Below, one piece after another: positions 11,529 to 37,507 of a DNA stretch of 64,000 nucleotides; position 1 is the first letter of the stretch, and every line of letters starts with the position of its first letter. The DNA is from Pseudofrankia inefficax. Its GTDB lineage: Bacteria; Actinomycetota; Actinomycetes; Frankiales; Frankiaceae. The stretch lies in the NCBI RefSeq assembly GCF_000166135.1, contig NC_014666.1, forward strand, positions 6,386,001 to 6,450,000, read 5' to 3'. The notes below the pieces were generated by a model that worked only from the letters and a program-made list of their open reading frames with translations, made no database searches and had not been told where the DNA came from. Position numbers and translations under genes: made by a program.

Positions 11529-12297
11529 GGTCGGTGACGGCGCGGTAGCACCGCGCCATCACCAGCAAGGCGTCGGCGCGCCGCTGGGCCGGGTTCCTGG
11601 CATCACCCGGCCCAGCGGCGACCCGCGCGGCCAGGCGCAACGCGTCCAGCAGCGTGCGGGCATCGTCGACGGGAACCGTCCCGCAGATCGTCACCCGGCC
11701 GTCCGGGCAGCCGGCGGCACCAGCCGGGACCGTCAGCAGTGACAGCGACCGGGCCCGCCGGGCGGCCTCGGCGTCACCCGCCACCCCGCGAGGGTCGACG
11801 TCGCGCAGCCACCGGTCGACGGCGGCGCGGACCTCGCCCGGGTCGGCCCGGCGGGCGAGCGCCGTGAGCTCCGCCTCGGCCGGCCCGGCCAGCGCGACCA
11901 GCCTGGGGGCCGACGCCGTCGGGATCGTCAGGGCCAGCACGTGGTCAAGCCCCACGTCCCCGCGCCGGAAGGCGTCGGCCAGCACCGGCAGGGCGGCCAG
12001 CGCCCGCGCCGCGACGAGCAGCGCGGCCGCGGCGGCCCACGTCAGCCGGGTCCGCTGGGCAAGCCAGCCGGCCGGTTGCGCGGCGTCGCCGTCGGACCGC
12101 GGCCCGGCGGCTCCCGCCCGGGCGCGCGAGCCGGCCGCGGCGCCGACCGCCCGCACCAGCGCCGCCTGCGCGGCCGCCACGACCCCGACCAGCTGGCCGA
12201 TCAGCTCGGCGGCCGCCTCGGGCGGGAGTGCCGTGGGCTCGATCGCGGCCAGCGCGCGGCGCAGCGCGGCCAGGGAATCCCGCTCCTCCTGGTCCAT
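11503..12297 (-). CDS. DUF222 (13E12-type) protein lacking its HNH domain
   Basis: The 264-residue Ala-rich product resembles the N-terminal DUF222 domain of 13E12 repeat-family proteins: an initial helical segment, WLAQRTRLTWAAAAALLVAARAL, LPVLADAFRRGDVGLDHVLAL and the terminal RRADALLVMAR motif. Family members usually run on for another 100-200 residues into an HNH nuclease; here the chain stops after MARCYRAVTDLTTAARSG. The last 26 bp overlap the convergent glycosidase gene. It is probably a truncated or degenerate copy; the DUF222 core itself is intact. Function of the domain is unknown, and without HNH no nuclease activity is expected. Confidence 0.7.
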   Translation of the reverse strand: MDQEERDSLAALRRALAAIEPTALPPEAAAELIGQLVGVVAAAQAALVRAVGAAAGSRARAGAAGPRSDGDAAQPAGWLAQRTRLTWAAAAALLVAARALAALPVLADAFRRGDVGLDHVLALTIPTASAPRLVALAGPAEAELTALARRADPGEVRAAVDRWLRDVDPRGVAGDAEAARRARSLSLLTVPAGAAGCPDGRVTICGTVPVDDARTLLDALRLAARVAAGPGDARNPAQRRADALLVMARCYRAVTDLTTAARSG

Positions 12298-28405: not shown

Positions 28406-30322
28406 TCAGCGAACGTCGCCGGTGGCGCCGCGTGGAGTCGCCGGCTGGTTCTCGCCGCCCGCGCGGGTGGCGGTTCGGCGCGGTGTGCCGGCCGCGGCCC
28501 GGCCCGAGCCAGTGGCGGCCCGGCCGGAGCCAGTGGCCGCTGCCTTCGGCGCCGTGATCGTCGCGGCCTTCGTGGGCCCTCGCCTCGCCGTCGCGGCCTT
28601 CGCCGGCCCAGGCTTCGCCACGGCGGCCTTCAGGGTCCCGGTTCTCGCCGTCCCGGGCGCCTTCACCGCCCCGGGCGTCACGGCGGACGGCTTCACGGCG
28701 GCGGCCTTGGACGTCCCGGGCCTGACTGTCCCGGCCTTGGCTGTCCCGGCCTTGGACGTCACGGCCTTGGACGTCACGGCCTTGGACGTCACGGCCTTGC
28801 CGGTCGCGGACCTGGCTGTCGCCGACTTGGCGGTCGGGGCCTTCACCGGCGTCGGCTTCACGGCCTCAGGCTTCACGGCTCGCGTCTTCGCGGGCTCGGC
28901 CCTCAGCGTCGCCGCTCTCCCGGTCGCCGCTCGCGCCGTCGCCGCCTTCGGGGTCACCGCCTTCGGGGTCACCGCCTTCGGGGTCGTTCCCTTCACGGTC
29001 ACCGGCTTTCGAGTCGCCGCCTTCGAGGCCTCGGACCTCGGCGTCCCGGGTCTCAGGGAGCCGGCCGCCGTCGAGGACGGGGTCACGGCCCGGGTGCCCA
29101 GGCGGCTGGCCGCTGTCCCGACCGCGTCGGCGGGGCGGGCGACGGGGCGCCGGGCGACGCGCTGGGCCGGCGCGCCGTCGGGGATGCCGGCGTGCGCGCG
29201 CCAGGTGCGGGCCAACGCGCGGCCGGCCAGGTCCGCGATCCTGGGGTCGTTCCAGTACCAGACGTGCGACAGCGGGCCGCGAGCCGCCCACCAGGGCCCC
29301 ACCGTCATCCGGACGTCCTCGCGGACCGCGAGCCGGTACTCCTCGGACAGCGGCCGCAACGGCTGGCTGACGAGGTCATACGGCGAGTAGACGTTCACCC
29401 AGCCGCCGGCCCCCGTCCGGCCGGGCGCCTCCCGCCGCCGTGGGCTCGTCGCCAGGCCCTCGGGGTCGCCGTCGAGGCCGGCGGCCGGCGCCGGCACGAG
29501 CAGCGGCCGGTGGAAGCCGCGCGAACGCAGCGAGTAGAGCCCCAGCGGACTGCCCAGGGTGATCAGGTCGGTGAGGGTCTCGCCGCGCTCCAGCCGGGAC
29601 GGCGTCGGGCCGATCGCCAGCCTCGTCGCCGCCGGGATCAGCCGGCGCGGTGTCGGCTGTTCGTCGGCCGCGCCGCGCAGCTGCGGCGGCACCCGGCCGG
29701 GACCGGTCGGGACGCCACCGCGGGCGAGCGGCCCGCCGCGCGGGTACTGACCGTGCTCGACCTGCAGGTCATAGAAGTAGTTGCTCGCGATCACCGAGCC
29801 GAGGCTGTGCCCGAGGACGCACAGCGGCGCGTCCGGGCCGGCCGCGACGGCCAGTTCCCGCAACGCCACCGCGACCCGGGTGTGGATCGCGTCGTAGACG
29901 GTGTGGTCCCGCTCCCCGGCGATCTGGTAGGCGATCGCGTCGCCGGCGAACTCGGTGGTCACCCAGCGCAGCGTCGGCCACGGCAGCGGGCCGGCGAACG
30001 GGACCCGCGGCAGCAGCGCGGACGACGACAGCGCGAGCATCGCCAGCCGGGAGCCATGGTCGACCCGGCTGGTCTGGCGCTTCAGCCAGCGCACATAGCG
30101 TGCCTGGCCCGGGCCGAAGCAGCGCTGGAACAGCTCGTCCTCGGCGGACTGGAGCACCGGCGCCCAGAAGGTCGGGCGCACGATGAGCGCGTCGTCCGGG
30201 TCGGCGCCGGAATGCTTCGCGAACGCCCGTCGCAGCAGCTCGACGGCCCGGTCGCCGTAGCCGGCGTCGGCCGTCTCCACGCCGTGGATCAGCGTGACGG
30301 CGATCCGCGGGGTGGCCGTCAT
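28406..30322 (-). CDS. Alpha/beta hydrolase with histone-H1-like C-terminal tail
   Basis: The 638-residue product has an N-terminal hydrolase domain (about 1-390): RIAVTLIHGVETAD at the first strand and CVLGHSLGSVIASNYF with the nucleophile Ser in GHSLG. Residues from about 400 to 638 are almost only Ala, Thr, Lys, Arg, Pro and Val, in repeats such as KAVTPKAVTPKAATARAATG and KAVTSKAVTSKAGTAKAGT, with very few acidic residues. Such tails resemble histone H1, HupB and PhaF. The ATG overlaps the stop of the GMC oxidoreductase by 4 bp, so the two are translated together. Likely an esterase or lipase; substrate unknown. Confidence 0.85.
   Translation of the reverse strand: MTATPRIAVTLIHGVETADAGYGDRAVELLRRAFAKHSGADPDDALIVRPTFWAPVLQSAEDELFQRCFGPGQARYVRWLKRQTSRVDHGSRLAMLALSSSALLPRVPFAGPLPWPTLRWVTTEFAGDAIAYQIAGERDHTVYDAIHTRVAVALRELAVAAGPDAPLCVLGHSLGSVIASNYFYDLQVEHGQYPRGGPLARGGVPTGPGRVPPQLRGAADEQPTPRRLIPAATRLAIGPTPSRLERGETLTDLITLGSPLGLYSLRSRGFHRPLLVPAPAAGLDGDPEGLATSPRRREAPGRTGAGGWVNVYSPYDLVSQPLRPLSEEYRLAVREDVRMTVGPWWAARGPLSHVWYWNDPRIADLAGRALARTWRAHAGIPDGAPAQRVARRPVARPADAVGTAASRLGTRAVTPSSTAAGSLRPGTPRSEASKAATRKPVTVKGTTPKAVTPKAVTPKAATARAATGRAATLRAEPAKTRAVKPEAVKPTPVKAPTAKSATARSATGKAVTSKAVTSKAVTSKAGTAKAGTVRPGTSKAAAVKPSAVTPGAVKAPGTARTGTLKAAVAKPGPAKAATARRGPTKAATITAPKAAATGSGRAATGSGRAAAGTPRRTATRAGGENQPATPRGATGDVR
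28752..28796. repeat. Three tandem copies of a 15-bp unit in the hydrolase tail
   Basis: TTGGACGTCACGGCC occurs three times in a row without mismatch, encoding KAVTS-type pentapeptides on the minus strand. A second array, TTCGGGGTCACCGCC, starts at 28947 with two perfect copies and one partial copy. Confidence 0.9.
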
Positions 30323-33018
30323 CGGGCCACCGCCGCCCGGCGCGCACCGGCGCCGCCCGTGGCGGCGCCAGGCACCGCACCGCGCACCGCCGAGCCGGCC
30401 GGACCGGCGGCCTGGAGCGGCACGTCGACCGCCGTGGCGGCGCCGGACCTCAGCCCGCTCGCGTCGACCGGTCCCTTCCCGGCCGGGCGCTCGCCGGCCG
30501 GTCGGCTGGCCACGCCACGGCCACCGCTCGACGCCCTGGTACCCGCGCCGCCGGCCTTCGCCGTGCTCACCCGGCCAGCGGCCTTCGCGGTGGACGCCTG
30601 GCCAGCGGCCTTCGCCGTACTGGCTCGGCCGGCGACCTTCGCCGTGGTCGACCGGCCAGCCGAAGTCTTGGACATCGCCTGACCGGCCGGCTTCGCCGTT
30701 CGCGCCGGCTCCGCGATCTTCGCCGTGGTCGCGCGGCCAGCGGACGTCGTGGTCACCGCCTGACCGGCCGGCTTCGCCGGGCCGAGTGCCTTCGCCGGCG
30801 TCGCCCGGCCCGCGGCCTTCGCCGCCGTCGCCCGGCCAGCAGGCTTCGCCGCCGCCGTCCCGCCGGTGGCCCTCGTCCCGCCGGTCCCGGTGCTCTGCCG
30901 TGCCTGGGTGGTGGCGGTCCTCGTGCCCGCCGCCCGGCTCCCGGTGGGGGCCGTCGTGGACGCCTTCATCGCCGTCGATCCCTTCGTCCCGCTGCTCGTT
31001 CTGGGGGCGGACGTCCGGCCGCCCGCGCTCGTGGCCGCTCTGGACACCGAGCCACCGCCGTGAACCGAGCCACCGCCGGCCGCCGAGGCGCCGGCCCTGG
31101 CGGACGTCGTCGACCGGGCCGTCCTGGTACGGGTCGTGCCGGATGGAACGGCCAGGGCGCGAGTGCCCGGCGAGGTTCGCGGCCGGGGCACCGTCCTGGC
31201 ACGGCGGCGGCCGTCGGCGACCATCCGCTGGGCGGCCCGGTCGGCGAACGCCGCGATCGTGAGCGCGGGCGCCGCGCCGACCGGACCGGGGAAGACCGCC
31301 CCGTCCACGACGTACAGGCCGGGATGCCCGAACACCTGCCCGAACTCGTCGACGACGCCGTCCCGCGCGCTGGTTCCCATCGACGCGCCGCCGAGCGGGT
31401 GCGCGGTCGTCCGCTGGTGCGCGGTCCCCGGGCCTGCCTCGAAGCGGCCGCCGAGTTCCGCGGCCAGCTCGGCCATCGTCGCGCGGACCCGCTCCAGGTA
31501 CTCGTCGTGGCCGGCCCCGGACCGCTCGACGGCGAGCCGGTCGCCGTCCAGTCGCAGCACCCCGTCGGTTCCGGCCCGGCCCACCGCTAGCAGCGCGAGC
31601 AACGGCTCGGCGGCGGCGCCCGCGTCGGCCAGCCGGGCGAGCCGCCCTCGCAGGTCGCCGCCCGCGCCACCGAACAGCCGCGCCGCCACCCATTCCCGCG
31701 CGTCCCTGGCCAGCCGCAGCGAGCGGCCGACACCGGGTAGCCCCAGACCGGCCGGCAGTCCGGGCACGCCGTGGCCGCCGGAGCCGTGCAGGGCCACCTC
31801 GCGGGCCGCGAGCAGCCAGGACAGGAAGGCCGGGACGCCCGCGTCGTGCAGGACGAAGCCGGGCCCGCTGCCCTGGAGCGCGGCCGGCAGCTGGACCGCG
31901 CCGGTGATGGTCGGGGCACCGCCGGCCGGCCAGGCCGGCCGGTCGCCGTGCCGGGCGCCGACGACCAGCCCGAGCACGTCGCCGTTGCCGCTGAACTCGT
32001 GGCCCAGCAGCGGGCTCACGGCCGGCAGGCCCGGACGGGCCCGCAGGAGCAGATAGGTCGAGCCGAGCGCACCGGCCGCCAGCACCACCCGCGAGCAGCG
32101 CACGGCCCGCATCGGCAGGGCGACGGTGTCGACAGGTGTGCCGTCGACGGCCCGATGGTGCTCCACATAGCTGACGACCCAGCCGCCCTCGCCGTCGGGC
32201 GCGATCCCACGCACCTCACAGCGGGTTCTGATCTCCGCGCCGTGGTAGGCGGCGGCGGACAGATAGGTGTGGTCGAGGCTGTTCTTGGCGCCGTGGTTGC
32301 AGCCGAGCACGCAGTCGCCGGCGAGCTGGCAGGTGGTGCGGGCTCGGCCGTGCACGTTGCCGTAGGCGGCCTCCGGCAGCGCGAGCCCCGGTGCGGTGGT
32401 TCCACGCACGCCGAAGCTGACGGCGAGCGCGGGCGCGCGCCAGTCCAGCCCGGCGCGCCGCGCGGCCGCGCGTACCGCGGCGGGCCGTCCGGCGTTCTCG
32501 TAGCCCGGCCGGCCGGCCGGGAACGGCGTCGCGCCGAGCATCCTCTCGACGGCGTCGTAGTGCGGCTCCAGGTCGGCGCGGCCGACCGGCCAGGGCTGGC
32601 CAGCGGTGGCCCGGCGGCGGGTGGAGCCACGGCCGGCCCCGCTCCCCCGCGAGCCGGCCCCGCCGCGGGCCGCGCCAGCGCCCGGCGGGTCCGCTCGGGC
32701 GAACCAGCGCTCCTCGGCTCGCTCCAGCGCGTTCGCGAAGATCAGCGAGCCGCCGCCCAGCCCTGCGGACACCACGGCGTCGCTCCCGCCGAGGGACCAG
32801 ACGTCGAAAAGCCCGTGCCTGCCGGCATCGGGGTCCCAGAAGGCCCCGGCCAGCTCGGCGGGCGAACGAGGAAAAGAGCCTGGCGGGTACGCCCGGCCAC
32901 GTTCTAGCACCAACACGTCGCGCCCGGCCTCGGCGAGCCGGAACGCGGTGACCGATCCACCGAAGCCCGACCCTACGACGACGGTCTCGACCTGTTCGGG
33001 CGCGGACTTGCGGACCAT
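30319..33018 (-). CDS. GMC (cholesterol-oxidase-like) oxidoreductase with histone-H1-like tail
   Basis: The 899-residue protein begins TVVVGSGFGGSVTAFRLAEAG, an FAD-binding GxGxxG motif, followed by LGGGSLIFAN and the GMC C-terminal box HPLGGASMG with the conserved His, then LYVVDGAVFPGPVGAAPALT. The Asn expected in the NP of G-x-NP-x-LT is replaced by Ala (GAAP), an odd change in the active site. From about residue 606 to 899 the chain is a Lys/Arg/Ala/Thr/Gly tail with KAAGRAT-type repeats. Nearest family: ChoD-type sterol oxidases. It is coupled to the hydrolase downstream and may act on a sterol-like or long-chain alcohol. Confidence 0.87.
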   Translation of the reverse strand: MVRKSAPEQVETVVVGSGFGGSVTAFRLAEAGRDVLVLERGRAYPPGSFPRSPAELAGAFWDPDAGRHGLFDVWSLGGSDAVVSAGLGGGSLIFANALERAEERWFARADPPGAGAARGGAGSRGSGAGRGSTRRRATAGQPWPVGRADLEPHYDAVERMLGATPFPAGRPGYENAGRPAAVRAAARRAGLDWRAPALAVSFGVRGTTAPGLALPEAAYGNVHGRARTTCQLAGDCVLGCNHGAKNSLDHTYLSAAAYHGAEIRTRCEVRGIAPDGEGGWVVSYVEHHRAVDGTPVDTVALPMRAVRCSRVVLAAGALGSTYLLLRARPGLPAVSPLLGHEFSGNGDVLGLVVGARHGDRPAWPAGGAPTITGAVQLPAALQGSGPGFVLHDAGVPAFLSWLLAAREVALHGSGGHGVPGLPAGLGLPGVGRSLRLARDAREWVAARLFGGAGGDLRGRLARLADAGAAAEPLLALLAVGRAGTDGVLRLDGDRLAVERSGAGHDEYLERVRATMAELAAELGGRFEAGPGTAHQRTTAHPLGGASMGTSARDGVVDEFGQVFGHPGLYVVDGAVFPGPVGAAPALTIAAFADRAAQRMVADGRRRARTVPRPRTSPGTRALAVPSGTTRTRTARSTTSARAGASAAGGGSVHGGGSVSRAATSAGGRTSAPRTSSGTKGSTAMKASTTAPTGSRAAGTRTATTQARQSTGTGGTRATGGTAAAKPAGRATAAKAAGRATPAKALGPAKPAGQAVTTTSAGRATTAKIAEPARTAKPAGQAMSKTSAGRSTTAKVAGRASTAKAAGQASTAKAAGRVSTAKAGGAGTRASSGGRGVASRPAGERPAGKGPVDASGLRSGAATAVDVPLQAAGPAGSAVRGAVPGAATGGAGARRAAVAR

Positions 33019-33642: not shown

Positions 33643-33813
33643 TTACCAGGCAGCGCCCTGGCGGAAGAGGATGACCTCGATCTCCTGCCGGGCGTTCGGC
33701 GACAGGGCGTCCTGGGACAGGTAGGTCTCGAGGGCCCGGCGCTCGCGACGGGCGGCACGACGGGCGCTGGCGGTGGTGAGCAGACGCTCGATGGGGGAAG
33801 TCTCGTTACGCAT
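33643..33813 (-). CDS. 56-residue basic helical protein, unknown
   Basis: A short frame starts at ATG 33813 with AGGAGCC spaced nine bases upstream and ends at TAA 33643, followed by a good hairpin. The product reads MRNETSPIERLLTTAS, then ARRAARRERRALETYL, then a Leu/Ala-rich helix ending ILFRQGAAW. The middle is strongly basic and helical. It is like the small Arg-rich proteins widespread in actinobacteria, whose role is unknown; nucleic-acid binding is a guess. Ribosome site, codon use and terminator make it a convincing gene despite its length. Confidence 0.75.
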   Translation of the reverse strand: MRNETSPIERLLTTASARRAARRERRALETYLSQDALSPNARQEIEVILFRQGAAW

Positions 33814-34614: not shown

Positions 34615-34857
34615 CCAGAGCTCCGGCGACCCGCCGGCCCGACCATCGCCCCGGACCGCCCGGCCGAGGGTAGCGGCGGTCACGCCGGACCCAGCCCGAC
34701 CATGATCGACCGATACGTTCGCGTAGGACGTTCGACGAACGTCGCCTGCCTGGTCACGTCCCATCGCGCGCGGAACGCACGGCGCGCCTCGGTCGACGGG
34801 CGCGCGGCCCGGCGACGCGGTGGACGTGGGGCTGGCAGGGAGGGCGGTGGGCGAGCG

Positions 34858-35733
34858 ATGAGCACGGTGGGCGGGCCGAACGGGGCCGAGGCGGTCAGCC
34901 TGGACCCGGCTAGGAATGCGGGCAGGCCGTTCGACGACGGGACCGTGCCGCCAGGCCAGGCCGGCGTCACCCTGCTGGATCTGCTGGATCTGGAGGAGCT
35001 CGACCGGGACCTGTACCGCACCACCGCCGTCTTCGACGAGCCGTACTCGCTGTTCGGCGGCCAGGTCGCGGCGCAGGCGCTGCTGGCGGCCGGCCGGACG
35101 GTGCCGGACGACCGGCTGCCGCACTCGCTGCACGGCTACTACCTCAGCCGGGGCAACGCGGCCCGGCCGGCGATCTTCCGGGTGGAGCGGGACCGGGACG
35201 GACGGTCGTTCTCCGCGCGCCGGGTGGTCGCCATCCAGGGCGGCCAGGTGATCTTCAACATGTCCTGCTCGTTCCACCGGCCGCAGACCGGCCTCGACCG
35301 GCAGGCCGGGCCGCCGCCGGCGGCCGAGGCGCCCGCGTCACTGCCGCCGCTGCAACTCCCCCGGCTGTTCGACGTGGAATGCCGGCGCCCGGCGCAGCCG
35401 TATCCGGACGCCGACTGGGAGACCAGGTTCTGGGCCCGCGCGACCGTGCCGCTCACCGACGACCCGCTGCTGCACGCGAGCGTGCTGACGTACCTGTCCG
35501 ACGTGTCCGGTGGGCTCGCCGCCTGGCACGACGGACGCTCCCACTCAGGCGCGAGCCTCGACCATGCCGTCTGGTTCCACCGCCCGGCCCGGCTGGACGA
35601 CTGGGTCCTCATGGACGTCACGCCGCTGTCCGCCGCCGGCGGCCGTGGCCTCTACAACGGCACCATCCACTCCGGCGACGGCCGGCTGGTGGCCACCATC
35701 ACCCAGGAGTGCCTGTTCCGCGACGTCGCCTGA
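34858..35733 (+). CDS. tesB: Acyl-CoA thioesterase II (TesB-type)
   Basis: The 291-residue double-hotdog protein shows LLDLLDLEELDRDLYR at the start, SLFGGQVAAQAL, HSLHGYYLSRGN, SLDHAVWFHRP and ATITQECLFR, the conserved TesB blocks including the Asp and Gln of the catalytic network. It hydrolyses medium to long acyl-CoA in the cytosol. The start is the ATG of MSTVGG; its ribosome-like GGGAGGG is a little far. Its 3' end lies on the opposite strand to the monooxygenase and overlaps it by 189 bp. Confidence 0.92.
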   Translation: MSTVGGPNGAEAVSLDPARNAGRPFDDGTVPPGQAGVTLLDLLDLEELDRDLYRTTAVFDEPYSLFGGQVAAQALLAAGRTVPDDRLPHSLHGYYLSRGNAARPAIFRVERDRDGRSFSARRVVAIQGGQVIFNMSCSFHRPQTGLDRQAGPPPAAEAPASLPPLQLPRLFDVECRRPAQPYPDADWETRFWARATVPLTDDPLLHASVLTYLSDVSGGLAAWHDGRSHSGASLDHAVWFHRPARLDDWVLMDVTPLSAAGGRGLYNGTIHSGDGRLVATITQECLFRDVA

Positions 35734-37281
35734 GCGGCGCTGGGCCGGCACCGGCTCGAACCGCAGCTCGGGCCCGCCGACCCGGCCGAACCGCAGCGCG
35801 CGCACGTCGGCCAGGTAGTTCATCCGGGTCCGCCACGGCCCGCGCTCGCCCTGCCTGGGCAGTTCGGCCGCGCCTCGCAGCACGTAACCCGAGCTGAAGT
35901 CGAAGAACGACGCCTCGCCCGCCTCGCCCGCCCCGGCGGGTGGATCGGCGGGCTCCGGGACGAAGGCCTGGAGCCGGTGGCGGTCCAGATGGCGCAGCAG
36001 GCGCGCGAGGTGCTCGCCGACGAGGTCGACCTTCAGCGTCCAGGACGCGTTCGTGTAGCCGAAGGCGAAGACGAAGTTCGGCACGCCCTCCAGCATCAGG
36101 CCCTTGTACATCCGCCGGTCGGGTACGGGCACCAGGGCGCCGTCGACCGTGAGCGGGATGCCGTCGAACATCTTCAGCCGCAGGCCGGTCGCCGTGACGA
36201 CGAGGTCGGCCGCCAGCTCCGCGCCGGAGCGCAGCCGGATCCCGCCCTCGACGAACGTGTCGATCTCGTCGGTGACGACGTCGACGCGCCCGCCCCGGAT
36301 CGCGGCGAACAGGTCGCCGTCGGGCACGAGGCACAGCCGCTGGTCCCACGGGTCGTAGCGGGGGGTGAAGTGCCGGGCGACGTCGTAGCCGGGCGGTAGC
36401 GACCGTGCGACCCGGGCGAGCAGCGTGCGGCGCACCAGCTCCGGGCGCCACCGGCTCAGCCGGAACAGCAGCTGCTGGCGCACGATGTTGCGCCAGCGGA
36501 CCAGCCAGGCGGCCCAGCGGTCGGGCAGGACGCGGCGCAGCCGGGTCGTCGCCGGGTCGACCGCGGGCATCGAGACGACGTAGGTCGGCGAACGCTGCAG
36601 CATGGTGACCCGGGCGGCCCGTTCCGCGAGCGCGGGCACCAGCGTCATCGCGGTCGCGCCGCTGCCGATCACGACGACCCGCGCGCCGGTGTGGTCGAGG
36701 TCGTCCGGCCAGTGTTGCGGATGCACGACCCGGCCGGTGAACGCGGCGCGGCCGGGGAAGTCCGGCTCGTAGCCGCGGTCGTAGTGGTAGTAGCCCGTCG
36801 CCGCGACCAGCACGTCACAGCTGAGCTGGATCCGGCGCGGCCGCTCGCCGGGCGGCACGGACGACCCGGCGCCCTCGGCCGACGGCCCGGCCGCGTCGCG
36901 GGTGAGCTCCACATCGACGGTCCAGCGGGCCCGCTCGCTCGACCAGCTGGCCGCGACGACGCGGTGTCCGTAGCGGATCCGCTCGTCGATGCCGTGCTCG
37001 CGGGCGGTGTCGGCCAGATAGCGCAGGATGGCCGAGCCCTCCGCGATCAGCCGGGGCTCGGTCCACGGCCGGAACCCGTAGCCGAGGCTGCTCATGTCCG
37101 AGTCCGAGCGGACGCCGGGGTAGCGGAACAGGTCCCAGGTGCCGCCCAGCGCGCCGCGCGCCTCCAGCAGGGCGACGGCCCGGTGGGGGTGGTGGTCCTT
37201 GAGGTGGACGGCGATCCCGATGCCGGACAGGCCAGCCCCGATGATCAGTACGTCCAGGTGCTCGACCGGTCGACTCACCAT
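35545..37281 (-). CDS. Flavin-containing (Baeyer-Villiger-type) monooxygenase
   Basis: The 578-residue protein has FAD motif IIGAGLSGIGIAVHL near the start, NADPH motif VVIGSGATAMTLVPAL and FTGRVVHPQHWPDD, matching the FxGxxxHxxxW(P/D) fingerprint of Baeyer-Villiger monooxygenases. It inserts oxygen into a ketone or oxidises a heteroatom using NADPH and O2. The start is the ATG of MVSRPVEHL. The usual end would be near GGPELRFEPV; here the frame runs 63 codons further through the antisense strand of tesB, giving a Gly/Val/Arg-rich tail that is probably a late frame change rather than a working domain. Confidence 0.9.
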   Translation of the reverse strand: MVSRPVEHLDVLIIGAGLSGIGIAVHLKDHHPHRAVALLEARGALGGTWDLFRYPGVRSDSDMSSLGYGFRPWTEPRLIAEGSAILRYLADTAREHGIDERIRYGHRVVAASWSSERARWTVDVELTRDAAGPSAEGAGSSVPPGERPRRIQLSCDVLVAATGYYHYDRGYEPDFPGRAAFTGRVVHPQHWPDDLDHTGARVVVIGSGATAMTLVPALAERAARVTMLQRSPTYVVSMPAVDPATTRLRRVLPDRWAAWLVRWRNIVRQQLLFRLSRWRPELVRRTLLARVARSLPPGYDVARHFTPRYDPWDQRLCLVPDGDLFAAIRGGRVDVVTDEIDTFVEGGIRLRSGAELAADLVVTATGLRLKMFDGIPLTVDGALVPVPDRRMYKGLMLEGVPNFVFAFGYTNASWTLKVDLVGEHLARLLRHLDRHRLQAFVPEPADPPAGAGEAGEASFFDFSSGYVLRGAAELPRQGERGPWRTRMNYLADVRALRFGRVGGPELRFEPVPAQRRSGDVAEQALLGDGGHQPAVAGVDGAVVEATAAGGGQRRDVHEDPVVQPGRAVEPDGMVEARA

Positions 37282-37507
37282 TGCCACCCCCGACCCCTGA
37301 CCTGCCCTATCGCGGCAAGTCAACCCGAAGACGACGGTAGGTCGCGCAGCGGCCCTTCGGGCGGAATCCGGGTGGGAACGCGGACATCGGCCCAGGTCGG
37401 GCGGCCTGGGCGAGCGGGAGGCCACCTTTCGTGCCCATCAGCTGACCGTGAGTGCGGCCATCGGTCGGCAGCGCGCCGGGGAACGGCCCGACGCCCGACG
37501 GAGAGCC

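Follow-up and report, generated by a model that had tools for sequence, protein, structure and literature searches.

The locus described here raises the question of why two adjacent genes for metabolic enzymes each end in a long basic tail. Both genes are located in a 64,000-nucleotide stretch of the Pseudofrankia inefficax genome (NCBI RefSeq assembly GCF_000166135.1, contig NC_014666.1, positions 6,386,001 to 6,450,000), which is called the window below; the whole genome (G000) comprises 8.8 Mb in a single contig. One gene encodes a flavin adenine dinucleotide (FAD) oxidoreductase of the GMC family, and the other encodes an alpha/beta serine hydrolase. The two tails have a characteristic basic composition, are present on every copy of either gene found in the genus, and have changed their residue order among relatives. 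Our preferred reading, which is held tentatively, is that they are disordered polycationic tails anchoring two lipid-processing enzymes; the anchoring role, its target and the substrates are what we infer here.

Two adjacent genes with basic C-terminal tails

The genes and their tails occupy the following positions in the window:

30319..33018, minus strand: GMC-family FAD oxidoreductase with a C-terminal tail, 899 amino acids (aa); open reading frame (ORF) with Pfam matches to GMC_oxred_C (E 2.7e-18) and GMC_oxred_N (E 1e-7)
30322..31176, minus strand: tail of the GMC protein, residues ~615-899, recognised by composition, charge and repeats
30319..30322, minus strand: ATGA overlap of 4 base pairs (bp) between the GMC stop and the hydrolase start
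28406..30322, minus strand: alpha/beta serine hydrolase with a C-terminal tail, 638 aa (M1 at 30322, stop at 28406)
28409..29158, minus strand: tail of the hydrolase, residues 389-638, recognised by composition, AlphaFold2 modelling and repeats

The residues at which the tails start (~615 in the GMC protein, ~389 in the hydrolase) are boundaries of our choice. The coordinates, the lengths of 899 and 638 aa and the 4-bp overlap given in the first-pass annotation of this DNA are all exact, and its description of long tails outside the enzyme folds is borne out by tails of 285 and 250 residues that recur in relatives.

The GMC tail (285 aa) has a net charge of +38 and contains 4.9% Lys, 9.8% Arg and 1.4% Asp+Glu; the hydrolase tail (250 aa) has a net charge of +42 and contains 9.6% Lys, 9.6% Arg and 2.4% Asp+Glu. 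Neither contains a single Phe, Trp or Tyr. Both are rich in Ala, Thr, Lys, Arg and Gly, with a net charge per residue of 0.13-0.17. The earlier label "histone-H1-like" is correct as to the basic character and generous otherwise, Lys making up only 5-10% at this charge density and the HC2 profile (PF07382) missing the tails: a genome search with it gave two matches elsewhere, both under the cut-off, and none in the window tails.

Lys is three to four times as frequent as expected from independent positional base frequencies in the three tails computed (observed versus expected: 14 and 3.6 in the GMC tail of G000, 18 and 6.5 in that of the related genome G030, 24 and 5.7 in the hydrolase tail of G000). 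The relation of Lys to Asp+Glu is reversed between tail and body in all nine proteins compared (Fisher p from 4e-6 to 8e-13; the proteins are related and the tests not independent). Alignment of the two tails with each other gave a score that 53 of 100 shuffled sequences also reached. Homology between them was therefore rejected, which agrees with the earlier view that they are alike in composition and not homologous in order. Tandem repeat units measure 18, 27, 54 and 81 bp in the GMC tail and 15, 21, 30 and 45 bp in the hydrolase tail, every period being a multiple of three.

A wrong-frame artefact was considered and rejected, mainly because the open frames of both genes reach recognisably homologous ends in G000 and in the related genome G033. 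GC content at third codon positions (GC3) is 0.82-0.92 across six tail blocks; taken alone this evidence is not clean, since GC content at second positions is slightly above GC3 in two of the six (GMC residues 601-700, hydrolase residues 601-638). The in-frame gaps in the tail alignment of the G000 group arise from the protein alignment and carry no evidence on the frame. According to the AlphaFold2 model, the hydrolase tail is predicted to be disordered, since the predicted local distance difference test (pLDDT) value is about 30 and no secondary structure is seen from residue 388 on. The AlphaFold model of the GMC protein (mean pLDDT 32) was too poor to judge and was not used; its tail is presumably disordered as well.

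Distribution of the tails

The genus group (g1) comprises eight genomes and includes two subclades, G000/G033/G031 and G030/G028/G032. Close GMC orthologues (72-94% identical) were found in six of the eight, and all six carry a tail of 264-412 residues as read, that of G028 running off the contig end. The hydrolase was found in 3 of 35 genomes of the family, all of them within the genus (3/8), and is tailed in each; in Frankia sp. AgB1.9 (L002) it is 95% identical to that of the window. One-strain slippage was therefore rejected as an origin of the tails.

Outside the genus the picture is different. None of ten distant GMC homologues with a readable C-terminus has such a tail (L003, L029 to L035, L088, of which the last 60 residues were seen, and L144, a 578-residue protein of a Pseudonocardia plasmid), and the same holds for six distant hydrolase relatives (L003 to L008). 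Untailed homologues in nearly all relatives, or a tail in one strain only, had been named at the outset as findings that would speak against a functional system. The former is what the readable loci outside the genus show; within the genus the tail is on every copy.

Three of the six genomes with a tailed GMC protein (G030, G028 and G032) gave no match to the hydrolase. The gene next to the GMC gene encodes a DUF1697 protein in G030 and a similar ORF in G032, and the G028 contig ends inside the tail. The GMC tail is thus independent of the hydrolase, and the proposal of the first-pass annotation that two enzymes are held together in one system is not supported. Linkage of the genes is also possible without tails, since in Streptomyces ochraceiscleroticus (L003) an untailed GMC gene (50% identical), a patatin gene and a hydrolase relative (41%) are clustered. 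No GMC gene was found in the available flanks of the other five hydrolase loci.

In wider searches, the hydrolase was found in 1 of 396 genomes of the phylum, namely its own (four candidates scored per genome), and in 0 of 199 genomes of group g9 (no positive control). At E 1e-90, the GMC protein was found in 4 of 148 genomes of the class, one of them outside the genus (eight candidates scored per genome). Among plasmid records, three have hydrolase relatives (27-30% identical) and three have GMC relatives (40-47%), one GMC record having been inspected.

Two side observations concern these homologues. The untailed GMC proteins of L003 (2028-4475), L031 and L088 have another C-terminal region at the place of the tail, alike by eye; that of L003, which alone was scanned, has no Pfam match. 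The hydrolase of L007, a record titled Comamonas sp. KCTC 72670, resembles the ones in L004 (Pyxidicoccus) and L008 (Myxococcus), and its flanking ORFs are also like those in L004; the record may thus carry a wrong title.

Evolution of the tails

The ratio of nonsynonymous to synonymous substitutions (dN/dS) in the GMC body was 0.17-0.37 (15 pairs from six genomes). Within G000/G033/G031 it was 0.18-0.30 in the bodies, 0.50-0.60 in the GMC tails and 0.71-0.98 in the hydrolase tails, two of the latter values resting on 100 codons only. The GMC bodies of the two subclades are 72% identical, with a synonymous divergence (dS) of 0.58-0.65. The GMC tail of G000 is unalignable beyond shuffled sequences with those of G032 and G028 (score equalled by 28 and 39 of 100 shuffles, respectively) and barely alignable with that of G030 (0/100 shuffles, Z 2.9). 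Despite the changed order, all GMC tails have no aromatic residues, 4.4-6.8% Lys and a net charge of +31 to +42.

Drift was simulated for a 285-residue tail by substitution alone at a distance of 0.6, in the range of the body dS between the subclades, in 100 runs under two base compositions. The simulated tails gained 2-13 aromatic residues, with 0 observed, and kept 1-10 Lys (0.4-3.5%), with 16-21 (4.4-6.8%) observed; they stayed alignable at Z 10-25, the observed values being 0.3-2.5. A Lys-containing, aromatic-free composition thus persists while the order of the tail changes. We find it simpler to read this result as selection on composition, but copying of existing units could do likewise.

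Rarity of such tails in the genome

A composition census covered 1,664,000 bases of G000 (18.9%), consisting of 80 stretches of 20 kb and the window. The strict rule (per 100 residues, 9 or more Lys, 20 or more Ala and 85 or more from the set AKTPRSGV) was passed solely by the two window ORFs; the loose rule (6 Lys, 80) was passed by seven further ORFs. When a Lys-Ala spacing pattern was used on the whole genome, eight matches at four places were obtained (one match in the control). One of these places is the hydrolase tail; the GMC tail escaped the pattern, which therefore overlooks some tails. The other three are an amidohydrolase, a membrane protein whose Lys/Ala loop is internal, and a protein in which such a stretch is only short. 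Since an amidohydrolase tail and a membrane-protein loop were found in this way, such tails are rare and not unique, and at least one more metabolic enzyme of the genome has one. A genome search with the hydrolase tail as protein query (150 of 326 candidates scored) recovered nothing but the query at E up to 10, which shows little, because low-complexity sequence of this kind is down-weighted.

The proteins found outside the window include an Amidohydro_2 amidohydrolase (L085, near 8,334 kb; E 4e-11) with a Lys/Ala/Thr tail of ~130 residues. Near 6,065 kb (L078/L079) lies a glycosyltransferase-like protein, so classed by eye, with a KAVAGK-type repeat loop between hydrophobic stretches. Near 630 kb (L077), a ChaB-domain protein combines a long repeat of Ser, Lys and Ala and one of KVVEKPVV type with a terminal Rho_N match under the cut-off. 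Of the ORFs in 296 kb sampled from G030, the GMC gene and one other (L132 6951-8369), which is Lys/Ala/Thr-rich near its end, passed the loose rule.

The GMC body

The following features were located in the body of the GMC protein:

32599..32691, minus strand: Gly/Ala/Arg/Ser-rich loop insert, residues ~110-140 (alignment)
32299..32331, minus strand: C230, C236 and C240, arranged as C-x5-C-x3-C (alignment, spacing)
31399..31401, minus strand: H540, at the position of the active-site His of cholesterol oxidase (hidden Markov model alignments)
31270..31272, minus strand: A583, at the position of the active-site Asn (alignments)

Family membership is indicated by Pfam scores of 67.3 bits for GMC_oxred_C (cut-off 24.6) and 32.5 bits for GMC_oxred_N (cut-off 23). 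The nearest solved relative is cholesterol oxidase (sequence E 2.4e-25, profile E 8e-37); the curated NCBIfam cholesterol oxidase model gave 168.7 bits against a cut-off of 850. The N-terminus starts with a folded domain, the Rossmann motif GxGxxG beginning at residue 16. In an alignment of 13 rows (six tailed and seven untailed), the basic insert of ~30 residues is present in all tailed rows and in 0/7 untailed ones.

The three cysteines are present in 13/13 rows, tailed or untailed. Their spacing matches that of the 3Fe-4S ligands Cys212/218/222 of Burkholderia cepacia glucose dehydrogenase (BcGDH), whose catalytic pair is given as His476/Asn519 (PMC6719666). The likeness rests on spacing and position, no alignment to BcGDH over the Cys loop having been obtained; the distance from the His to the Asn site, 43 residues, is also the same in both proteins. 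Sequence match to BcGDH and to fructose dehydrogenase, both iron-sulfur (Fe-S) GMC enzymes, is limited to a C-terminal block. Cholesterol oxidase differs from the window protein in lacking Cys at the three positions and in its Asn at the site that is Ala or Gly in the tailed proteins. The GMC body is thus a putative Fe-S-type flavoprotein, in which a cluster may be bound by the three cysteines.

H540 is kept; the active-site residue of cholesterol oxidase that aligns with it is called His447 in PMC5722936. A583 aligns with Asn485 of cholesterol oxidase and Asn519 of BcGDH; by alignment, this site is Ala in three and Gly in three of the six tailed proteins and Asn in all nine untailed homologues read. 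The catalytic His is therefore found in the window protein without the second His/Asn. Membership in the GMC family is based on the Pfam models, and an active His/Asn pair is not claimed.

The hydrolase body

In the hydrolase, S173 (29804..29806, minus strand) is the nucleophile of GHSLG, a GxSxG motif, with D316 at 29375-29377 and H353 at 29264-29266, the last two assigned by position and conservation only. All three are invariant in 7/7 hydrolase relatives, as expected of a serine alpha/beta hydrolase. The AlphaFold2 model has a core of moderate quality (mean pLDDT 49.7 including the tail), and its first strand begins at residue 7.

In structure comparison, the best matches were DDHD/Nir domains (Z 14.7, 14.6 and 14.1), the first over 244 aligned residues with a root-mean-square deviation of 3.8 and yet only 14% identity; other lipases, including LCAT, followed from 13.3 down, 0.8 to 1.4 Z lower. 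The best E value in Foldseek was 0.05. Ten Pfam families were matched by any of seven members at E up to 10 with HMMER filters on, and DDHD was not one of them. The hydrolase thus appears DDHD-like in fold and is not filed as a DDHD member, because the Pfam DDHD model has no match. Mammalian DDHD2 is termed a triglyceride and phospholipid lipase in the source consulted. Profile matches in the PDB (a capsid protein, E 0.0014; a lipase, E 1) were weak and were judged chance or uninformative.

The earlier suggestion of lipid chemistry remains plausible in view of the DDHD-like fold, the patatin gene beside the untailed Streptomyces pair, and thioesterase and FAD monooxygenase genes next door; the substrates are guesses.

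A possible role of the tails and rival explanations

According to the preferred reading, both gene products would be cytosolic and process lipids, one as an Fe-S-type GMC flavoprotein and the other as a DDHD-like serine lipase or esterase, and the two would probably be translated in a coupled fashion. Each disordered polycationic tail would be a generic, multivalent anchor, in which many weak Lys/Arg contacts hold the enzyme on a polyanionic surface and the folded body does the chemistry. At a guess, this surface may be the nucleoid (DNA or RNA), polyphosphate, or a layer of anionic phospholipids such as that of membranes and lipid bodies. Because only composition would matter to such an anchor, gain and loss of repeats could rewrite the tail. 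This reading is suggested by the tails on 6/6 GMC proteins and 3/3 hydrolases with composition kept despite changed order, by simulated drift, which loses Lys and gains aromatics, unlike the observed tails, and by the two adjacent tails being the only strict matches in the part of the genome surveyed.

It is also suggested by precedents. In bacteria, most descriptions of lysine-rich tails concern DNA-acting or granule proteins (PMC5504291, PMC7398561, PMC9239181). The tails of actinobacterial TopA, Ku and HupB/HupS are likewise C-terminal, Lys/Ala-rich and made of degenerate repeats, and those of TopA, Ku and HupB are reported to bind DNA or raise processivity (PMC7398561); these proteins act on DNA, whereas the window tails are on metabolic enzymes. 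AlgP and PhaF of Pseudomonas and MLDS of Rhodococcus likewise have a long, basic Lys/Ala/Pro C-terminal region and links to granules or droplets and to DNA. MLDS is reported to bind DNA via its Lys-rich C-terminus and to target lipid droplets via its N-terminus (PMC5504291); for AlgP, the C-terminus is reported to be required for polyphosphate granule spacing, and net charges of the whole proteins are given as +55 for AlgP and +35 for PhaF (PMC9239181). Unlike the window proteins, these three are non-enzymes and have tighter KPAA or PAKKA repeats. An enzyme with a lysine tail is already known in TopA; a narrowly worded literature search for metabolic enzymes with such tails found no paper, which is not proof of absence.

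Several results weigh against anchoring. The dN/dS values of 0.50-0.98 indicate little positional constraint in the tails. Net charge (simulated +15 to +44, observed +33 to +42) and acidic residues (simulated 5-21, observed 5-11) fail to discriminate the tails from drift, and both were dropped as proof of selection. Between the subclades, the adjacent intergenic stretch of 1,683 bp is alignable over only about 600-715 bp, so lost alignability is not special to the tails and is weakened as proof of unusual turnover; in addition, dS under strong GC3 bias understates the neutral distance. The intergenic result leaves our weighting unchanged: if the neutral distance is larger, the persistence of the composition is at least as striking. 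Repeat copying alone could preserve tail composition. A frameshift (L025 about 11570-12000) shortens the hydrolase tail of G031 to ~100 residues; its remainder, including the recognisable end, continues in another frame, and either a real loss or a sequencing error may be the cause. No homologue read outside the genus bears such a tail. The tails are also less densely charged than the best part of TopA: the end of G000 TopA is similar in style, and its densest 60 residues carry +17, compared with +11 and +12 in the two tails, though its last 80 residues average 0.16 charge per residue, equal to the tails.

Many of these points fit the main rival, which we regard as nearly as likely as anchoring: the tails would be tolerated, near-neutral repeat expansions of high-GC DNA in units that are multiples of three, with no binding job, and copies would perpetuate the composition. 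Arrays of 15, 18, 21, 27, 30, 45, 54 and 81 bp, the high dN/dS with many indels and unconserved order, and the frameshift in one of three genomes are as expected from this. So are the low-complexity insert of 30 residues inside the GMC body itself and the Lys/Ala-rich sequences elsewhere, namely the tail of the unrelated amidohydrolase and the loop of the membrane protein in the same genome and, under the loose rule, ORF L132 of G030. Harder to reconcile with repeat turnover are the absence of strict matches in 1.6 Mb outside the window against two adjacent ones inside, the tail on every one of the six orthologues, and the excess of Lys and lack of aromatics in all GMC tails. It is improbable, in our view, that the GMC protein has degenerated or been repurposed so that it now serves mainly as a scaffold, its tail and Fe-S/FAD body forming a redox-sensitive anchor or sensor in place of an alcohol oxidase. 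The replacement of Asn by Ala or Gly in the tailed proteins alone points that way, as does the lower turnover number (kcat) reported for Asn485Leu of cholesterol oxidase (PMC5722936); however, the protein retains His540, the FAD motif and the Cys triad, its body is under purifying selection, and the same source gives a calculated cost for Asn485Ala of only 4.8 kJ/mol in substrate binding, compared with 36-41 for the other two residues. Attachment to the cell wall or surface by Ala/Pro/Thr-rich, possibly glycosylated regions, as in secreted actinobacterial proteins, is very improbable: Thr and Pro are present in the tails and a weak Extensin_1 match was obtained (E 0.014; 15.7 bits, with the cut-off at 105), but both proteins begin directly with the folded domain and no signal peptide was seen by eye (no predictor was run).

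A bolder form of anchoring, which we consider unlikely, is a redox-active scaffold, in which the lineage-specific, Asn-less, Fe-S GMC protein with its polycationic tail and the DDHD-like lipase of the same operon with its non-homologous tail would share one surface (the nucleoid or polyphosphate/lipid bodies). If so, the tails of these neighbours, unrelated and yet alike in composition, would be convergent targeting signals. If two coupled metabolic enzymes are anchored by such tails, enzyme placement in bacteria could be composition-coded and not sequence-coded. The locus may also serve as a test case, as it offers one enzyme with tails of unrelated order and untailed homologues as controls.

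Neighbouring genes and other features

The genes on the GMC side of the pair are as follows:

34702..35733, plus strand: acyl-CoA thioesterase gene (TesB-like), divergent neighbour (Pfam)
35545..37425, minus strand: FAD monooxygenase (FMO-like) gene (Pfam)

The 4-bp overlap of the GMC and hydrolase genes is kept in all three genomes that hold both, including loci L024 and L025. A thioesterase-like ORF also adjoins the GMC gene in L024, L025 and L026, and FAD monooxygenase-like ORFs are seen by eye near it in L024 to L028. On the opposite flank of the pair, Pfam identified a CobU-type gene beyond intervening ORFs. The Rfam scan of the window gave two tRNAs only. Upstream of the GMC gene, at 33643-33813 on the minus strand, there is an ORF of 56 residues, which has no Pfam match and is conserved in 6/6 genomes with a tailed GMC protein.

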